Assembly: GCA_028140795.1 (NCBI GenBank) | Contig: JAOIOW010000001.1 | Coordinates: 88,466-152,465 of the forward strand | Direction: 5' to 3' | Length of the DNA: 64,000 nucleotides | Source: Fidelibacterota bacterium | GTDB taxonomy: Bacteria; Fidelibacterota; Marinisomatia; Marinisomatales; Marinisomataceae | Shown: positions 12,079 through 48,063 of the stretch, piece by piece | How positions within the stretch are numbered: position 1 is the first letter of the stretch | How the letters are laid out: every line of letters begins with the position of its first letter | Made by a program: the position numbers and the translations under genes | The notes under the pieces: generated by a model | What the model saw: the letters and a program-made list of their open reading frames with translations, nothing else | What the model was told of the DNA's origin: nothing | Databases searched by the model: none

Positions 12079-12942
12079 ATGAAAAGAATCGTTATTATGA
12101 ACTGTATTACAATTTCTCTCATTGTGATCTTGTCATACATTTCTACACCAAATAATCAAATCCTTGCTAATCATCATTTAATAACTGGCTTTGGATCAGT
12201 AATTGCATTTATGAGTGTTTTATGGATTGTGAGTTTAATTGTTAAAGATGCAAGTATTGTTGATATTTTTTGGGGGCCTGCGTTTATAGTTCTTGGGTCC
12301 TCGCTACTTGTATCAATGGACCAAGTCTACTCTGAAAGATCGTTGTTTATTCTATTTCTAGTATCACTATGGGCAATAAGACTGGCGTCACATATTGGAT
12401 TTAGAAACATTGGTCATGGCGAAGATTTTCGATATGTTGAATGGAGAAAAGAAAGCGGTAAAAACTATTGGTGGCATAGTTTCATAAGAGTTTTTTTACT
12501 TCAAGGAGGTTTATGCACCTTAGTGGGCGTATCAATTTACTTTGGGTATCTAAATGAAAAATCTTTATCATTCATTGAGACCATGTTTGCATCAACAATA
12601 TTTTTTATTGGTCTAGCTTGGGAGTCAATTAGTGATTTGCAATTAAAAGCATTTAGAAAAGATCCCAAAAATAAAGGTAAAATTTGCAAAAGCGGATTAT
12701 GGAAGTATTCAAGACATCCTAATTATTTTGGCGATCTTGTTGTTTGGATAAGCATTTTTACTTTTAGCATTTCTAGTGAAAATCTTTTATTTATTGCAGG
12801 TTCATTTTTAAGTCCATTGATTATGGGGTCAATTTTTTATTATATTACGGGCCCTATAATGGATCAAGCAATGATGCAAAGTAGGCCAGATTACAAAAAA
12901 TATATGGAAAATAGTAATTCACTAATTCCAAAATTAAAATGA
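12079..12942 (+). CDS. DUF1295 / steroid 5-alpha-reductase-like membrane protein
   Basis: A 287-residue polytopic membrane protein. The family signature is DASIVDIFWGPAF around residue 58, then KSGLWKYSRHPNYFGD around 210, the motif shared with isoprenylcysteine methyltransferases and steroid reductases, and a C-terminal RPDYKKYMENSNSLIPK. The family is thought to bind a nicotinamide or SAM cofactor and act on a lipid; the true substrate is unknown. It follows the VOC gene by one base and precedes the cupredoxin gene by 13 bp. Another member of the neighbourhood seen in Gammaproteobacteria (DUF2878) lies 7 kb away at 4804. Confidence 0.88.
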   Translation: MKRIVIMNCITISLIVILSYISTPNNQILANHHLITGFGSVIAFMSVLWIVSLIVKDASIVDIFWGPAFIVLGSSLLVSMDQVYSERSLFILFLVSLWAIRLASHIGFRNIGHGEDFRYVEWRKESGKNYWWHSFIRVFLLQGGLCTLVGVSIYFGYLNEKSLSFIETMFASTIFFIGLAWESISDLQLKAFRKDPKNKGKICKSGLWKYSRHPNYFGDLVVWISIFTFSISSENLLFIAGSFLSPLIMGSIFYYITGPIMDQAMMQSRPDYKKYMENSNSLIPKLK

Positions 12943-12955
12943 AAGAGGGGAAAAA

Positions 12956-13402
12956 ATGTATAACAAGTTATTGTTAACACTTTCAATATTCGTATTTATA
13001 GCATGTGGCGGTGGAGCTCCACAAGAAGCACAAGTTGTAAATATTGGATCTTTAGGTTCTGAAATGAAATATGATGTTGAAGAATTCACAGTTAAAGCAG
13101 GTTCGAAGGTTAAAATTGTTTTAAAAAATAATACTCCTTTAGAGTTTATGGGTGAAATGCAGCACAATATTGTCATTTTCAAAGATGAATCTGCTGCTCC
13201 AGAAATCATCAAGCTAGCTGAAAGCTACTTTGGTGGTGATGCTCCGGACGACAATAGAATTCTTGCGAAATCTATATTAATAGATAAGCAAGAAGAAACT
13301 ACTATTGAATTTGACGCGCCTAAAAAACCAGGTAGATATTTGTATGTCTGTACATATATTGCCCATGCAGGTTCTATGCGTGGTTATATGATCGTAGAGT
13401 AG
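12956..13402 (+). CDS. Azurin/plastocyanin-like blue-copper lipoprotein
   Basis: A 148-residue cupredoxin. The lipobox FIAC gives lipidated Cys17. The copper-site residues can be placed: H70 in MQHNIVI, then C132, H137 and M141 in CTYIAHAGSM, the same C-x4-H-x3-M spacing as azurin. A single-domain type 1 copper protein in the periplasm usually carries electrons. Directly downstream is an FTR1 iron permease. In other bacteria, cupredoxin-domain proteins such as EfeO or FetP accompany FTR1-type ferrous uptake, so this protein may oxidise or hand over iron. A strong ribosome binding site (GAGGGG) precedes the ATG. Confidence 0.9.
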   Translation: MYNKLLLTLSIFVFIACGGGAPQEAQVVNIGSLGSEMKYDVEEFTVKAGSKVKIVLKNNTPLEFMGEMQHNIVIFKDESAAPEIIKLAESYFGGDAPDDNRILAKSILIDKQEETTIEFDAPKKPGRYLYVCTYIAHAGSMRGYMIVE

Positions 13403-41348: not shown

Positions 41349-41355
41349 TTTATTG

Positions 41356-41700
41356 TGGAGGCGGGGAGATTCGAACTCCCGTCCAAAGTAGAGAAAAAGT
41401 AGACATCTACATGTTTAGTTTCTTGATCATATTTCACTGTATAGCTGTACAAGAACAAACAGGTATATAGCAATCTTCTAAAGTTTCACTTATTTAACTG
41501 AAGCAGGAAAATAGGCTATCTCATTTTTATGACACCATTCAGCGAACGATGAGAAACGTCTACTGATGATGAGCTTTAGCAATTAAGCGAAAGCCATTTG
41601 GCCATTATCGGCACTTAATATAGGTTAGAAGTTTTAAGAGGTACTAAGCTCTACATGCAATCTAAGATTCCATTCTAAAATGTCGAAACCGGTCGCCCCC
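41356..41700 (-). ncRNA. ssrA: Transfer-messenger RNA (tmRNA)
   Basis: The 5' end reads GGGGGCGACCGGTTTCGACA, the hallmark of tmRNA, and the 3' end TTCGAATCTCCCCGCCTCCA provides the T-arm and an acceptor stem CGCCTCC that pairs with GGGGGCG (one G-U). The discriminator A is at 41356; CCA is not encoded. The tag reading frame is best read from GCC at about 41612 to a TAA: Ala-Asp-Asn-Gly-Gln-Met-Ala-Phe-Ala. tmRNA rescues stalled ribosomes and marks the peptide for proteolysis. About 345 nt. It converges with the GDPD gene with 7 bp between ends. Confidence 0.95.
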
Positions 41701-41712
41701 AATTGTCAAATA

Positions 41713-41725
41713 GTATCGAAGATAC
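41713..41725 (-). repeat. Short dyad upstream of tmRNA
   Basis: GTATC and GATAC arms surround TTC on the minus strand, 12 bp before the tmRNA 5' end. It might be an operator for ssrA or a small hairpin on a longer precursor. No clear -35/-10 pair for ssrA was found around it. Confidence 0.3.
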
Positions 41726-41741
41726 AATATATTTTTGAAAC

Positions 41742-41777
41742 AAAAAAGGCTCTGCAGCGCCAACCCCAGAGCCTTTT
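41742..41777 (-). terminator. Orphan intrinsic terminator on the minus strand, upstream of tmRNA
   Basis: An 11 bp perfect stem (AAAAGGCTCTG with CAGAGCCTTTT, 12-nt loop) is followed on the minus strand by TTTTTT, a good terminator. On the plus strand the trailing T run is only four. No annotated minus-strand gene precedes it, so it presumably ends an unannotated transcript. Confidence 0.85.
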
Positions 41778-41820
41778 CGATTGCTTGTATTTGCTTACAA
41801 TAATCTAATTTTAGACTCCC
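41742..41820 (-). ncRNA. Candidate small RNA between tRNA-Lys and tmRNA
   Basis: Read on the minus strand from a GGGGGAGTC start near 41820, about 80 nt contain TCTAA-AA-TTAGA, then a hairpin with GATT/AATC and TTGTA/TACAA arms, then the strong terminator. A promoter-like element lies upstream. No open reading frame of any length is present. It is not 6S, SRP or RNase P RNA by its sequence as far as I can see. Boundaries are estimates. The remainder of the 41701-41945 gap (about 41853-41945) is AT-rich with no other signal I can support. Confidence 0.4.
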
Positions 41821-41823
41821 CCA

Positions 41824-41852
41824 AACTAATATTAATTTTTATAATTGGTCAA
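41824..41852 (-). promoter_or_regulatory. Possible promoter of the candidate small RNA
   Basis: On the minus strand TTGACC (41852-41847) is followed 15 bp later by TATTAG, then TTTGGGGGAG. The spacer is shorter than ideal. It is the only promoter-like element reading into the orphan terminator. Confidence 0.35.
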
Positions 41853-41945: not shown

Positions 41946-42017
41946 GCCTCCGTAGCTCAATGGTAGAGCAGGGGCCTTTTAAGCCCTTGGTTGTAGGTTC
42001 GAGTCCTTCCGGGGGTA
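41946..42017 (+). tRNA. tRNA-Lys (TTT)
   Basis: A 72-nt cloverleaf: GCCTCCG pairs with CGGGGGT (G-U pairs at two positions), discriminator A. D-arm GCTCAATGGTAGAGC; anticodon stem GGGGC/GCCCT around CTTTTAA with anticodon TTT; T-arm AGGTTCGAGTCCT. CCA is not encoded. The gcvP ATG is 26 nt downstream of its 3' end on the same strand. MnmA, encoded at 35100, is the enzyme that thiolates this anticodon. Confidence 0.97.
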
Positions 42018-42043
42018 CTATTTTTGGGAAATATCTCTTAATT

Positions 42044-44863
42044 ATGTCTGAATTTCATAAAAAACATATCGGTCCCTCTCAGAAAGAAATCGACGAAATG
42101 TTGCAATATCTTAATTGCGATAACCTCAATGATCTTCTTGAGAAAATTGTGCCTAAAAATATACTAGATATAGATGATATGTCCATTGGGAATGAAGTTT
42201 TCTCAGAAAATGATATTTTAAATCATGTTAAAAACATTGGTACCAATAATAAAGTTCATAGATCTCTAATTGGCCAGGGGTATTATGATACCATTACTCC
42301 GAACGTTATTTTAAGAAATATACTTGAGAACCCGGGATGGTATACACAGTATACTCCATATCAACCTGAAATCTCACAAGGAAGATTGGAAGCTCTTTTG
42401 AACTATCAAACAATGATTACTCAAATTACCTCCTTACCAATTGCTAATGCATCCCTCTTAGATGAAGGAACTGCAGCTAGTGAAGCAATGTTAATGCTTT
42501 ATCGCAAAAATAAATCTGAAAAAATGCAATTTTTAGTTGATAGAGAGTGTTTTCAACAAACTATTGACGTCATTATTTCAAGAGCTGAGCCATTAAATAT
42601 TGAAATCATTGTAACAGACTTTAACAATTTTGATTTTACCAATGCTTTTGGTTGTATTGTCCAATACCCAAATAAATATGGACACATCTCATCAGATAAT
42701 GATTACAAACGTGTTATATCTGATGCACATAATGCAAATTGTAAGGTCATCTTTGCAAGCGATCTAATGTGTCTCCAACTTTTTGAAGCTCCAGGTAGTT
42801 TAGGAGCTGATATCGCTGTTGGTAATAGTCAGCGTTTTGGAGTACCACTTGGATACGGTGGACCTCATGCAGCATTCATGTCTACAAGTGAAGAATTTAA
42901 AAGAGATATTCCAGGAAGAATTGTAGGCGTTTCGCAAGACCGTAGGGGAAATCAAGCTTATAGACTTACACTTCAAACCAGGGAACAACATATTAGAAGA
43001 GAAAAAGCAACTTCAAATATTTGTACAGCTCAAGTATTGCTTGCTATCATCTCAGGAATGTATGCATTATTTCACGGTCCAGATGATTTAAAAAATATTG
43101 CAAGACGAATTCATAGTCATACAAAAGAACTTGCCAATAAAATTGCAAATCTAGGTCATGAGATTGTAACTAATGATAATTCATTTTTTGATACAATAGT
43201 AATCAAATTATCGAACATGAGTATTGATAGTTTAAAAGATAGGGCATTAAAGCATAATTTTAATTTGATGTATCACGATAATGGACTTATTGGTATCTCT
43301 TTGGATGAGAAAACAGATTTTGCTGAAGTTGAGATGCTTGCAAATCTATTTGATGCACATAATGATTCTAAAAATTCTTATAATATTTTTAAACCTAATA
43401 GAGCAGGAGATATTTTAACTCATCCTATTTTTCATAGCATTAATTCTGAAACAGAAATGCTTAGATACATCAATAAGTTAGAAAAAAGGGATCTGTCCTT
43501 GAACTATAGCATGATACCATTAGGGTCTTGTACTATGAAACTAAATGCGACTGTTGAAATGATTCCAATTAGTTGGCCAGAATTCAATTCTATCCACCCT
43601 TTTGCACCATTAAGTCAGGCTAATGGTTATAAAAAAATCATTAATGAGCTAGAGCAAATGCTATATAAAGTTACTGGATTTGATGCCGTATCATTTCAGC
43701 CAAATTCTGGTGCACAAGGAGAATATGCTGGATTATTAAGCATTAGAGAATATCATAAAGCGAATAATTCAAAAAGAGATATTTGTCTAATACCTGAATC
43801 TGCCCATGGAACAAATCCTGCAAGTGCAATAATGGCTGGACTTAAAGTTGTGATAGTAAAATGTGATGACCATGGAAATATAGATTTTAAAGATTTAAGC
43901 GCAAAAGTTGATGAGGCTGGTGACAGGTTGTCATCATTAATGGTTACTTACCCCTCAACCCATGGTGTATTTGAACATAACATTGATGAAATATGTAATT
44001 TAATTCACGAAAATGGTGGCTTAGTCTACATGGATGGAGCCAACTTGAACGCCATGGTTGGTGTATGTAAACCAGGTAAATTTGGAGCTGATGTTATGCA
44101 CATTAATCTTCATAAAACTTTTTGTATACCGCATGGTGGAGGAGGTCCAGGTATGGGTCCAATTTGTGTGAATGAAAAATTAAAACCACATCTTCCAAAA
44201 CATAGTTTCACTGATGAAGATTTTTCTTATTCTGTATCGTCATCACCATTTGGTAGTGCAAGTATTCTATTAATTTCTTATATCTATATGAAATTAATGG
44301 CAGCAAACGGTTTATTGAAAGCATCCCAAGTTGCAATTTTATCTGCCAACTATATGGCTAAGAGACTTGAAAATGATTATAGCATTTTATATCGCGGTAA
44401 GAGCGGATTAAATGCGCATGAGTTCATTGTTGATTGTAGATCATTTAAATCCACTGCGAATATTACTAATGAAGATATCGCTAAAAGATTAATTGATTAT
44501 GGGTTTCATGCTCCTACTATGTCTTGGCCTATTCCAGGAACACTAATGATTGAACCAACCGAAAGCGAAACAAAATCTGAGCTTGATAAATTTTGCGATG
44601 CTATGATTGCAATTAAAAAAGAAATTATTGAAATAGAATCAGGTAAAATGCCTCAAGAAGACAATGTTTTAGTTAATGCTCCACATACTGTACACGATAT
44701 TTGCGATGATTGGAATCACCCTTATTCAAAAGAAAGTGCAGTTTTCCCTACCAAATGGAATAAAGAAAATAAGTTTTGGCCATATGTTTCTAGAATAGAT
44801 AATGCCTTTGGGGATAGAAATTTTTTCTGTGTATGTCCGGACATAGATTCTTATAAAGAATAA
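42044..44863 (+). CDS. gcvP: Glycine dehydrogenase (decarboxylating), glycine cleavage P-protein
   Basis: About 939 residues, the fused full-length P-protein rather than the split GcvPA/GcvPB pair. The N-terminal half starts FHKKHIGPSQKEIDEML and has SLLDEGTAASEAM; the C-terminal half has ESAHGTNPASA and the PLP lysine K691 in NLHKTFCIPHGGGGPGMGP (E. coli K706 region). It decarboxylates glycine and loads the aminomethyl group on GcvH lipoate. GcvH, GcvT and Lpd are not within this window. Start set at ATG 42044; an upstream in-frame codon lies inside tRNA-Lys. It converges on carB with 5 bp between stops. Confidence 0.96.
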   Translation: MSEFHKKHIGPSQKEIDEMLQYLNCDNLNDLLEKIVPKNILDIDDMSIGNEVFSENDILNHVKNIGTNNKVHRSLIGQGYYDTITPNVILRNILENPGWYTQYTPYQPEISQGRLEALLNYQTMITQITSLPIANASLLDEGTAASEAMLMLYRKNKSEKMQFLVDRECFQQTIDVIISRAEPLNIEIIVTDFNNFDFTNAFGCIVQYPNKYGHISSDNDYKRVISDAHNANCKVIFASDLMCLQLFEAPGSLGADIAVGNSQRFGVPLGYGGPHAAFMSTSEEFKRDIPGRIVGVSQDRRGNQAYRLTLQTREQHIRREKATSNICTAQVLLAIISGMYALFHGPDDLKNIARRIHSHTKELANKIANLGHEIVTNDNSFFDTIVIKLSNMSIDSLKDRALKHNFNLMYHDNGLIGISLDEKTDFAEVEMLANLFDAHNDSKNSYNIFKPNRAGDILTHPIFHSINSETEMLRYINKLEKRDLSLNYSMIPLGSCTMKLNATVEMIPISWPEFNSIHPFAPLSQANGYKKIINELEQMLYKVTGFDAVSFQPNSGAQGEYAGLLSIREYHKANNSKRDICLIPESAHGTNPASAIMAGLKVVIVKCDDHGNIDFKDLSAKVDEAGDRLSSLMVTYPSTHGVFEHNIDEICNLIHENGGLVYMDGANLNAMVGVCKPGKFGADVMHINLHKTFCIPHGGGGPGMGPICVNEKLKPHLPKHSFTDEDFSYSVSSSPFGSASILLISYIYMKLMAANGLLKASQVAILSANYMAKRLENDYSILYRGKSGLNAHEFIVDCRSFKSTANITNEDIAKRLIDYGFHAPTMSWPIPGTLMIEPTESETKSELDKFCDAMIAIKKEIIEIESGKMPQEDNVLVNAPHTVHDICDDWNHPYSKESAVFPTKWNKENKFWPYVSRIDNAFGDRNFFCVCPDIDSYKE

Positions 44864-44868
44864 AAATT

Positions 44869-47800
44869 CTATTTAAAATATTCTTGAAGTGCTTTCACGC
44901 TAATTTTGTTTAAATGTTTCATAGAATCAATAGCGGCTCTTGCCCCTGGGAGCGTAGTAATAGTTAAAATATTTTTCATGACTGATGTTTTACCAATCGC
45001 TTCTTCATCAAATCTTGATTGTGGCCCTTCCGGTGTATTGATTACTAATTGAATATTATCATTTAAAATTTCATCAACAACATTCGGTCTTCCTTCACCA
45101 ACTTTAAACATATCATCGCACAAAATACCTTGTTCATTAAGAAACCTGGATGTACCCTTTGTAGCAACAAGGTTAAAACCTAAACCCATTAAATTTTTTG
45201 CTATTGGAACAAGGCCTGCCCTATCTGTTTTATTAACTGATAAAAAAGCTGTGCCTTGTTTTGGAACATTATACCCATCTGACTTCATCGCTTTTAAGAA
45301 AGCACTACCTGTGCTCATATCAATACCCATTACCTCACCAGTAGATTTCATTTCAGGGCCTAAAAAGACTTTTTCATCTTTAAACTTTTTAAATGGTAAG
45401 ACTGCTTTCTTTACAGCATAATGTTCAAAATTATTTTCTTTCAATTTGAAATCATTTAATGATTTTCCAACCGAAATTTGTGCTGCTATATTTGCCAATG
45501 CAACGTTGCTATATTTACTGACAAAAGGCACTGTACGGCTTGATCTTGGGTTTACCTCTAGAACATATACTTTATCATCTTTTACAGCAAATTGAAGGTT
45601 AATTAAACCTACAACTTTAAGCTCAAGTGCTAATTTAGCTGTAATAGTTTCAATCTCTTTTTTAACAGTATCACTTACTTCGTATGGGGGAATAACACAT
45701 GAAGAATCTCCAGAATGAACTCCAGCTTCTTCAATATGTTGCATAATTCCTCCAATGAAAACGTTTTCTCCATCGCAAAGTGCATCTACATCAAACTCAA
45801 ATGCATTTTCAATAAATTGATCAATTAAAATTGGGTGATCATTAGTAGCTTCAGCTGATCTAAATACATAATCCACCAATTGTTCTTTTGAATAAACAAT
45901 TTGCATTGCTCTTCCACCTAATACAAAACTTGGTCTTACTAATACAGGAAAGTTAGCAGTTTCAGCATAACTATAAATATCATCATAATTTTTGGCTATA
46001 CAATACTCAGGAGTTAATACTTTTAGTTTATCAATTACCTTAGCAAACTCTTCTCTGTTTTCAGCAAGATTAATACTGTCGGATGATGTACCATATATTT
46101 TGACTCCGGCTGAGGCAAGTTGGTTAGCAATTTTTAATGGTGTTTGTCCTCCAAATTGAACTAATACACCATCTGGCTTTTCAAAATTGATAATATTCAT
46201 AATATCTTCGAATGTTATTGGTTCAAAATAAAGTCTATCAGCTAAATCAAAATCAGTTGAGACAGTTTCTGGATTACAATTAACCATTATTGATTTATAG
46301 CCAGCTTCTCTCAAACCAAACACCGCTTGTACACAACAATAATCAAATTCAATACCTTGACCAATCCTATTTGGCCCACCTCCTAAAATCATAATTTTTT
46401 TACCTTCAAGAGGTTGTAAATCATTTTCTGATTCATATGTGGAATATGAATAGGGGGTTTCAGCTTCAAATTCCCCAGCACAAGTATCTACTAATTTGTA
46501 GACTGGTTTGATTCCTTGATCTATTCTCATTTGCTGGACTTCATTTTCGGATAAATTGTTTAAGCGAGCTATTTGTAAATCTGAAAATCCATTCTTTTTT
46601 AAAAATTCTAAATTCTCTATTGAAGAATACTCTTTTTCAATATTAACTATTTCTTGAATTTCTGTTAAAAACCATGGATCTATGCCAGTATTTCTATGAA
46701 TTTCTTCAATTGAAAATTCCTGCTTAATAGCTTCTTTGACTTTTAACATCCTAAATGCGCTACCATCATTTAAAGATTTAATATCTAGCTCTCTAAATCT
46801 TTTAATATCTAAATCTTCATCTCGAGGATCTTTTGTTTCAAATCCTGGTAAATTAAGCTCTAGAGAGCGGAAAGCTTTTTGAAATGATTCCCTAAATGTC
46901 CTTCCAATGGCCATCGCTTCCCCAACAGACTGCATTTGTACACCTAGTTTTCCCGAAGCTGATGAAAATTTTTCAAAATCAAATCTTGGCAATTTTGTCA
47001 CTATATAATCAATTGTAGGTTCAAAAGCCGCTAATGTCCTGTTGGTTATATCATTTTTTAATTCATCTAAAGAATATCCAACCGCGAGTTTAGCCGCAAT
47101 TTTTGCTATAGGAAATCCTGTTGCTTTAGATGCTAGCGCAGAAGACCTACTCACTCTCGGATTCATTTCAATGATTACCATTCTTCCATCAACCGGGTTA
47201 ACAGCGAATTGAACATTTGAACCTCCAGTATCCACACCTATTTTTCTAATACATTTTATAGCTGCATTTCGCATTAATTGAAACTCTTTATCACTTAATG
47301 TCATTGCGGGTGCTATTGTAATAGAATCACCAGTATGTATACCCATTGGATCAATATTTTCAATTGAGCAAATGATAATAACATTATCATTTAAATCTCG
47401 TATGAGTTCTAATTCATATTCTTTCCAACCATTTAAGTATTCCTCAACAAGAACTTGACCAGTAGGGCTTTCTTTCAAACCTTTATTTACTGATGCTTCA
47501 AATTCTTCTTCATTGTATGCAACAGAACCGCCTGAACCGCCTAAAGTAAATGAAGGTCTGATAATAGCAGGTAAGGAGATTTTATTTAATAACTTTTTTG
47601 CCTCATCTAACGATTTAACAGTATATCCGTATGGTAAATCGAGACCAATTTCTAACATTGCCTGCTTAAACATTTCTCTGCTTTCAGCAGTTTCAATAGC
47701 TTTTCTGTTAGCTCCAATGAGTTCTACATTATACTTTTTAAGAATTCCTTCTTCATCTAGCTTCATGGCAACATTTAAAGCTGTTTGTCCTCCAACTGTA

Positions 47801-48063
47801 GGCAAAATAGCGTCAGGTTTTTCTTTTTTTATTATTGCTTCAACGTATTCTGCAGAAATAGGCTCAATATAGGTTTTATCAGAAAATTGAGGATCAGTCA
47901 TTATTGTAGCCGGGTTAGAATTAATTAATACAACTCGATAGCCTTCTTCTTTTAAAGCCTTAATAGCTTGTGTCCCTGAATAATCAAATTCACACCCCTG
48001 GCCAATAACAATGGGTCCAGCACCTATTACTAAAATAGTGTTTATATCATTACGTTTTGGCAT
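44869..48063 (-). CDS. carB: Carbamoyl-phosphate synthase large subunit
   Basis: A 1064-residue protein with two homologous ATP-grasp halves: [17 protein letters not shown] near the start and [17 protein letters not shown] in the second half, then an MGS-like allosteric domain at the C-terminus. Each half carries ATP-grasp motifs ([24 protein letters not shown]). It makes carbamoyl phosphate for pyrimidines and arginine from bicarbonate, ATP and glutamine-derived ammonia. It overlaps carA by 14 bp, so the two subunits are coupled. Confidence 0.97.

Follow-up and report, generated by a model that had tools for sequence, protein, structure and literature searches.

One described system with which the RNA considered here can be compared is 6S RNA (RF00013), which is likewise small, non-coding and conserved over a lineage, but RF00013 spans 187 positions vs. 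about 80 nt for the RNA predicted in our window (by which we mean the whole stretch of 64,000 nucleotides analysed), and a permissive E-value still yielded no 6S match, whether around the window RNA or at any of 12 order-level loci; a 6S identity was rejected. Across the order, RF00013 at E ≤ 0.01 matches in 13 of 130 genomes (families f4, f5, f8 and f14 only, f1–f30 being anonymous family labels), 2 over the cut-off, and these matches lie on other contigs or in other places. Two f14 genomes (G053 and G047) hold a separate 6S-like locus as well as this RNA, their 6S matches scoring 46.3 and 35.4 vs. a cut-off of 46.4. We also observe that f4, f5 and f8 have no strong match to R3, our order-level model of the RNA, a distribution partly complementary to that of 6S, with two f14 genomes carrying both. 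Beyond 6S, Rfam 15 returns only tmRNA and two tRNAs over cut-off in the window (the best permissive match being STnc40, 22.6 vs. 45), nothing over cut-off except tmRNA and tRNA in the 12 order-level loci, and one tRNA only in the phage loci L248 and L252.

Three further systems resemble this one in part, as described in the portions of the papers available to us. The orphan structured RNA motifs of a 104-motif metagenome survey (PMC2864571) are likewise based on comparative evidence from environmental bacteria and have no assigned function; the main text of that survey contains no occurrence of tmRNA, ssrA, SAR406 or Marinimicrobia. RNA anti-CRISPRs (Racrs; PMC10651486), in which a phage genome contains one isolated copy of an RNA element from its host, give a precedent for how a phage copy may act, but Racrs mimic CRISPR repeats, whereas the host element here is a single gene beside ssrA. 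The prophage sRNA AgvB (PMC12197685) is also a phage RNA acting on host RNA regulation, but it mimics the mRNA targets of GcvB, while in our case the phage RNA, described below, and the host RNA are homologues. A literature search on small or non-coding RNA in Marinimicrobia/SAR406, or "upstream of ssrA", with subscription papers mostly outside its reach, returned nothing on this RNA and no small RNA work on SAR406.

The window belongs to the genome of an uncultured ocean bacterium, a Candidatus Marinimicrobia (SAR406), that is 86% complete, and the features of the locus are collected in Table 1. An earlier note, made from this sequence alone, had pointed to a strong minus-strand terminator, a promoter-like element upstream of it and two further hairpins between. 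The terminator (GGCTCTG/CAGAGCC stem and U6 at 41773-41742(-)) and the promoter-like element (TTGACC-N15-TATTAG at 41852..41826(-)) are both borne out, and the two hairpins are present but weak (UUGUA/UACAA; UCU/AGA). It is also correct that no minus-strand gene precedes the terminator, tRNA-Lys and gcvP being on the plus strand and carB the nearest sizeable minus-strand ORF.

Table 1. Positions of the predicted RNA, its parts and its neighbours in the window.
Feature	Position	Strand	Basis or remark
-35 element TTGACC of the RNA promoter	41847..41852	-	pattern match in window; TATTGnnCAATT-like with few changes in 18 genus loci
-10 element TATTAG of the RNA promoter	41826..41831	-	pattern match and genus alignment
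Predicted small RNA, ~80 nt	41742..41822	-	R3 58.2 bits, E 2.8e-10; R1 E 6.3e-24 (window sequence included in building both models); 5' end (41822) inferred from the -10 position
Weak 5' hairpin UCU...AGA	41804..41815	-	arms 41815-41813/41806-41804
Weak hairpin UUGUA-loop-UACAA	41785..41800	-	arms 41800-41796/41789-41785; invariant in 18/18 genus loci
Terminator hairpin GGCUCUG-GGGUUGGCGCUG-CAGAGCC	41748..41773	-	arms GGCTCTG/CAGAGCC 41773-41767/41754-41748; six pairs next to the loop-closing pair standard in 50/50 sequences, each changed on both sides
Nearly invariant loop GGUUGGCGCU, proposed recognition site	41756..41765	-	host alignments; GGUUGGCRYU in phage copies
U6 termination tract	41742..41747	-	window sequence; identical tract in 18 genus loci
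Putative -10 (TATCTT) of ssrA's own promoter, between RNA and ssrA	41719..41724	-	similar box in genus (by eye)
ssrA (tmRNA), tag ADNGQMAFA	41355..41700	-	Rfam match
tRNA-Lys(ttt), upstream neighbour	41946..42018	+	Rfam match
gcvP	42044-44863	+	named by Pfam
carB, nearest sizeable upstream minus-strand ORF	44869-48063	-	Pfam; 3' end 3 kb away

The promoter arrangement is the sole match in the window to its own pattern (TTGACC/TATTAG, spacer 14–18), although 8 of 100 shuffles also gave one match. A generic promoter scan of 39.5–44.5 kb found 30 sites vs. 25.2 expected, which is near chance, so the scan alone is no evidence and the case rests on comparison between genomes. The same near-chance numbers are what would favour reading the locus as a terminator with a chance promoter, kept beside ssrA by synteny only; we consider this highly improbable, as it is contradicted by the covariation of the stem, the conservation of loop and linker, and the phage copies without a U-tract (all described below). 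The predicted RNA, taken as the 84 nt from 41825 to 41742, folds at −28.9 kcal/mol with a z-score of −4.22, and none of 200 shuffles folded equally well. This minimum fold pairs the UCU/AGA region differently from the weak 5' hairpin, and other families have a longer 5' stem at this end (e.g., CCUCUUU...AAAGAGG). The UUGUA/UACAA hairpin overlaps the stretch aligned with GCAARUGAA in other families (alignment A2, below), and since it is invariant throughout the genus loci, covariation speaks neither for nor against it. The terminator hairpin is omitted by a generic terminator scan with a loop limit of 8 because its loop is 12 nt.

Within the genus, a DNA search of 61 genomes located the element between tRNA-Lys and ssrA at 18 loci in 24 genus genomes, the window's own included, and the covariance model R1 recovers the RNA in 18 of the 24. 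Promoter boxes, linker and hairpin are conserved across the 18 genomes, and boxes and RNA are, by eye, better conserved than the DNA upstream of the boxes. One of the six R1 misses (G003, f1) has a full tmRNA and a shortened spacer without the RNA, which corresponds to a loss within the genus; the other five, in genomes 56–82% complete and with no full-length tmRNA listed, are uninformative on absence. The weaker R1 matches in other families also lie before tmRNA at 9 of 12 loci. Of the matches, L052, L056 and L057 have no tmRNA and look like ordinary terminators, and we set these aside together with L063, L064, L065, L071 and L080 (five other genomes) and L084–L087, which match the DNA pattern but give no R3 match at E ≤ 1.

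To place these loci in the order as a whole, we take all tmRNAs over the Rfam cut-off, which amount to 97 places in 96 of the 130 genomes. The RNA is found upstream of tmRNA, on the same strand and within 330 nt, at 87 of these places, in families f1, f6, f7 and f9–f15. The ten places without it (one in f2, two in f3, one in f5, four in three f8 genomes, G003 in f1 and G118 in f7), one of them within the window's genus, mean that the RNA can be lost. By eye, a TATATTTG box in f3 and f5 is followed by a related 5' part (UUGGYARGUG-like) and another hairpin. The place in G118 (L117) is peculiar in its own right, with a tmRNA of unusual tag, GEYSYAAAA, beside tRNA-Lys, and this tmRNA is possibly from another lineage in the bin.

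Searches with R3 covered the phylum itself and selected viral loci. Over 245 phylum genomes, R3 gives one strong match each in 89 of the 130 order genomes (53.5–84.3 bits) and none in the 115 other genomes, the next-best matches reaching at most 40.9 bits. All but three of the 89 genomes (86/89) are among the 87 tmRNA places; of the three, G053 and G069 have the start of a tmRNA in the rest of their contigs, and in G086 the contig runs out. At the 87th place, in G093, a contig boundary truncates the locus, and the score is just 31 bits. Every testable host copy therefore lies directly upstream of ssrA on the same strand (88/88). By eye, the RNA was not seen upstream of 20 tmRNAs outside the order (30 of the 115 genomes sampled, 20 with tmRNA, some with short flanks).

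The structure of the RNA was assessed in alignment A2, which draws on ten families and takes in 50 of the 77 non-redundant segments (four starting later than in the 77-segment list); the list leaves out identical segments, segments with N, and L134. R3 was built from A2, so its own 50 rows match by construction, while the phage copies lie outside the model. In A2, 94.4% of the cells of the 3' hairpin are standard pairs and 9 of its 10 pairs are changed on both sides, with 79 doubly changed cells vs. 21.6 on average after shuffling; every slide was far worse. The stem thus covaries strongly over the ten families. The genus alone contributes little (covariation in 2 pairs, with the two weak hairpins never varying), and outside the genus the 5' stem is consistent, though double changes are few and some cells are broken. 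For the whole fold, double changes occur in 3 of 26 and 4 of 25 pairs in two groups, in none in two others, and in 2 of 34 in a group of three. The U-tract is poor in part of f9, and an f12 copy (L114) has three GGUUGGC motifs.

The host loop GGUUGGCGYU is nearly invariant, with C or U at one position, and the exceptions are UUUUGGCGAU in two f11 loci and GGUUGGCACU in G129. Conservation is not required of a terminator loop, so its presence here suggests that the loop is read by something. A conserved promoter and terminator thus surround a conserved structured region, as in a discrete terminated small-RNA gene, and the small RNA of roughly 80 nt that the earlier note proposed next to ssrA gains support from comparison between genomes; the covariance search in relatives that it called for shows linker and loop conserved in addition to the terminator, contrary to one of the two findings that the note had named as refuting it. 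Its description of the RNA as stand-alone has to be qualified, since every testable host copy is linked to ssrA and a role in cis is possible.

Our preferred reading, to which we assign a probability of roughly 0.55 and which we rank above a cis-acting leader, is of a discrete structured small RNA that would act in trans through its loop via a loop-binding partner. On this reading its gene, on the minus strand, would start from a dedicated promoter and stop at a dedicated intrinsic terminator, immediately ahead of ssrA. Comparison shows that the promoter boxes, a single-strand tract like GCAARUGAA, the 3' hairpin stem (by compensatory change) and the loop are kept. Held on a rigid stem, the loop may be the recognition site for a partner, either an RNA-binding protein or a C-rich RNA. 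Weighing against this reading are the position of all 88 testable host copies before ssrA and of the phage copies before a 69-aa ORF (below), both of which suit a cis element, the lack of an exact sense-strand target for the loop in the window genome, the ten tmRNA places without the RNA, and the failure to find the phages' helicase in any of the 130 order genomes. The ssrA linkage suggests, at most, a role near ribosome rescue or translation.

This linkage also favours the possible alternative that the element is a cis-acting leader, in which transcripts from the upstream promoter would either end at the hairpin or continue into ssrA and a loop-binding protein would set the ratio. ssrA is constant and codirectional in all 88 testable copies while the upstream neighbours vary widely by family (tRNA-Lys in many, otherwise various ORF clusters). 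Furthermore, in L051, L058, L107 and L134 the hairpin ends 23–24 nt before mature tmRNA, leaving little room for an ssrA promoter; since the room is so limited, ssrA is probably read from upstream in these four loci, where a separate ssrA promoter seems lost and RNA and ssrA would be co-transcribed. Against a leader, the spacing from the hairpin to ssrA varies from 23 to 231 nt across host loci, and many families have, by eye, a -10-like box of ssrA's own (GTAAATT-like, ~20 nt before the ssrA 5' end). Inspection of the folds by eye revealed no antiterminator shared among the families, though f7 copies have a possible one, in which a 5' GCCUCUUUU may pair with the terminator's AAAAGGC with one bulge. 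Finally, promoter and terminator form a complete unit, which argues for a discrete RNA; in other families the place of the -10 element is taken, by eye, by TTGCnn followed by TATATTTG-like boxes. Separately, a leader like TTTTTGAYAAT directly before GGGGGCGA at the tmRNA 5' end is widely kept in most loci read (by eye), probably as a pre-tmRNA processing or promoter feature.

Copies of the RNA also occur in phages. A pattern scan of IMG/VR found it in a 41.7-kb phage contig whose ORFs include a RusA-like resolvase, Gp157/Gam-like, DnaB-like helicase-primase and Sak4-like proteins and a polynucleotide kinase, and the helicase is common to five related phage contigs, this one included. R3 scores in the five are 74.4, 54.5, 47.1 and 39.5 bits and, for L251, 17.5 bits (E 0.23), i.e., clear in four and weak in one. 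L251 has the element in the same place, with loop GGUUGGCACU, a largely re-paired stem and two U-U mismatches next to the loop. Looser viral pattern matches (L226–L244) score 29 bits or less, and L245–L247 give no R3 match; these are not considered further. Two other patterns returned no hits. The 41.7-kb contig and the RNA of host G095 have 42 identical nt in common. The phage helicase was not found in the order genomes (0/130), so it is the RNA alone that points to the phage host.

The phage copies keep the stem and the loop (GGUUGGCRYU) and have no U-tract, which argues that the hairpin is not maintained merely as a terminator. No tmRNA was found in the parts of the phage loci read, and a position away from ssrA favours action in trans. 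At the same time, all five contigs have the order RusA, RNA, 69-aa ORF, with the hairpin just before the start of the ORF, and this placement, always upstream and on the same strand as for ssrA in the hosts, also fits a cis leader reading through into the small ORF and makes it a serious competitor. Under the trans-acting RNA that we favour, phages would carry the copy to engage the same partner. Two other observations concern these phages. A second hairpin-bounded element with a C-rich middle lies just after RusA (L225 ~6611-6546(-), same place in L248–L252), with arms TTAGGGAGCT...AGCTCCCTAA that in L250 become TTAAAGAGCT...CTCTTTA, a compensatory-looking change, and it is possibly another phage RNA. 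In L250, an RNA-carrying phage, an integrase ORF (12099-13155(-)) adjoins a tRNA-Leu(taa) gene, likely an attachment site that could reveal the host.

The nearly invariant G-rich loop resembles a seed, and one could imagine an antisense regulator whose loop pairs with C-rich sites in mRNAs. We regard this as unlikely, since the window genome, 86% complete, has no exact sense-strand CGCCAACC target (an exact 8-mer search in one genome): the motif occurs at two places, the RNA gene itself and, in antisense orientation, an ORF that by eye resembles carbamate kinase. Hfq was moreover found in none of the 130 order genomes by a search that was positive in 5 of 14 controls. A search of the same 86% complete window genome for RRM proteins found none. 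Pairing of the loop with tmRNA was rejected: 8–10 pairs can form at the resume codon in the window's family, but permuted loops do equally well in 7–85% of trials (16 of 97 loci), and in f7 loop position 9 fails to track the base in tmRNA. A small protein gene was rejected as well, as no RTG was found at the conserved site of 31 copies out of 87 (including all 18 of f1). In the remaining 56, a stop either comes between codons 3 and 56 or was not found, and 34 of them stop by codon 5. Many f7 and f9 copies, RNAs of families other than the window's such as L088, L050 and L093, and some phages (L248, L249) do show GAGG-N7-RUG and then an early stop, like a minimal minigene (AUG AAU UAA; GUG AAA AAG UGA), but this short ORF is not kept throughout the family.

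The observation in the earlier note is right, and the phenomenon is larger than was visible from the window alone. Its recurrence across much of the order and in a small phage group suggests a host RNA worth copying. More tentatively, and as a proposal that we hold to be rather doubtful, host and phage copies could form a previously undescribed class of RNA, linked in SAR406 to the ribosome-rescue gene ssrA and binding a host factor via GGUUGGC loops, which phages have captured as a stripped-down mimic seizing that factor during infection. SAR406 is an abundant uncultured ocean lineage, and a single-copy structured RNA beside ssrA across ten families and in phages offers a concrete way into RNA regulation in a group with Hfq found in 0/130 genomes, as well as into the capture of host non-coding RNA by phages.
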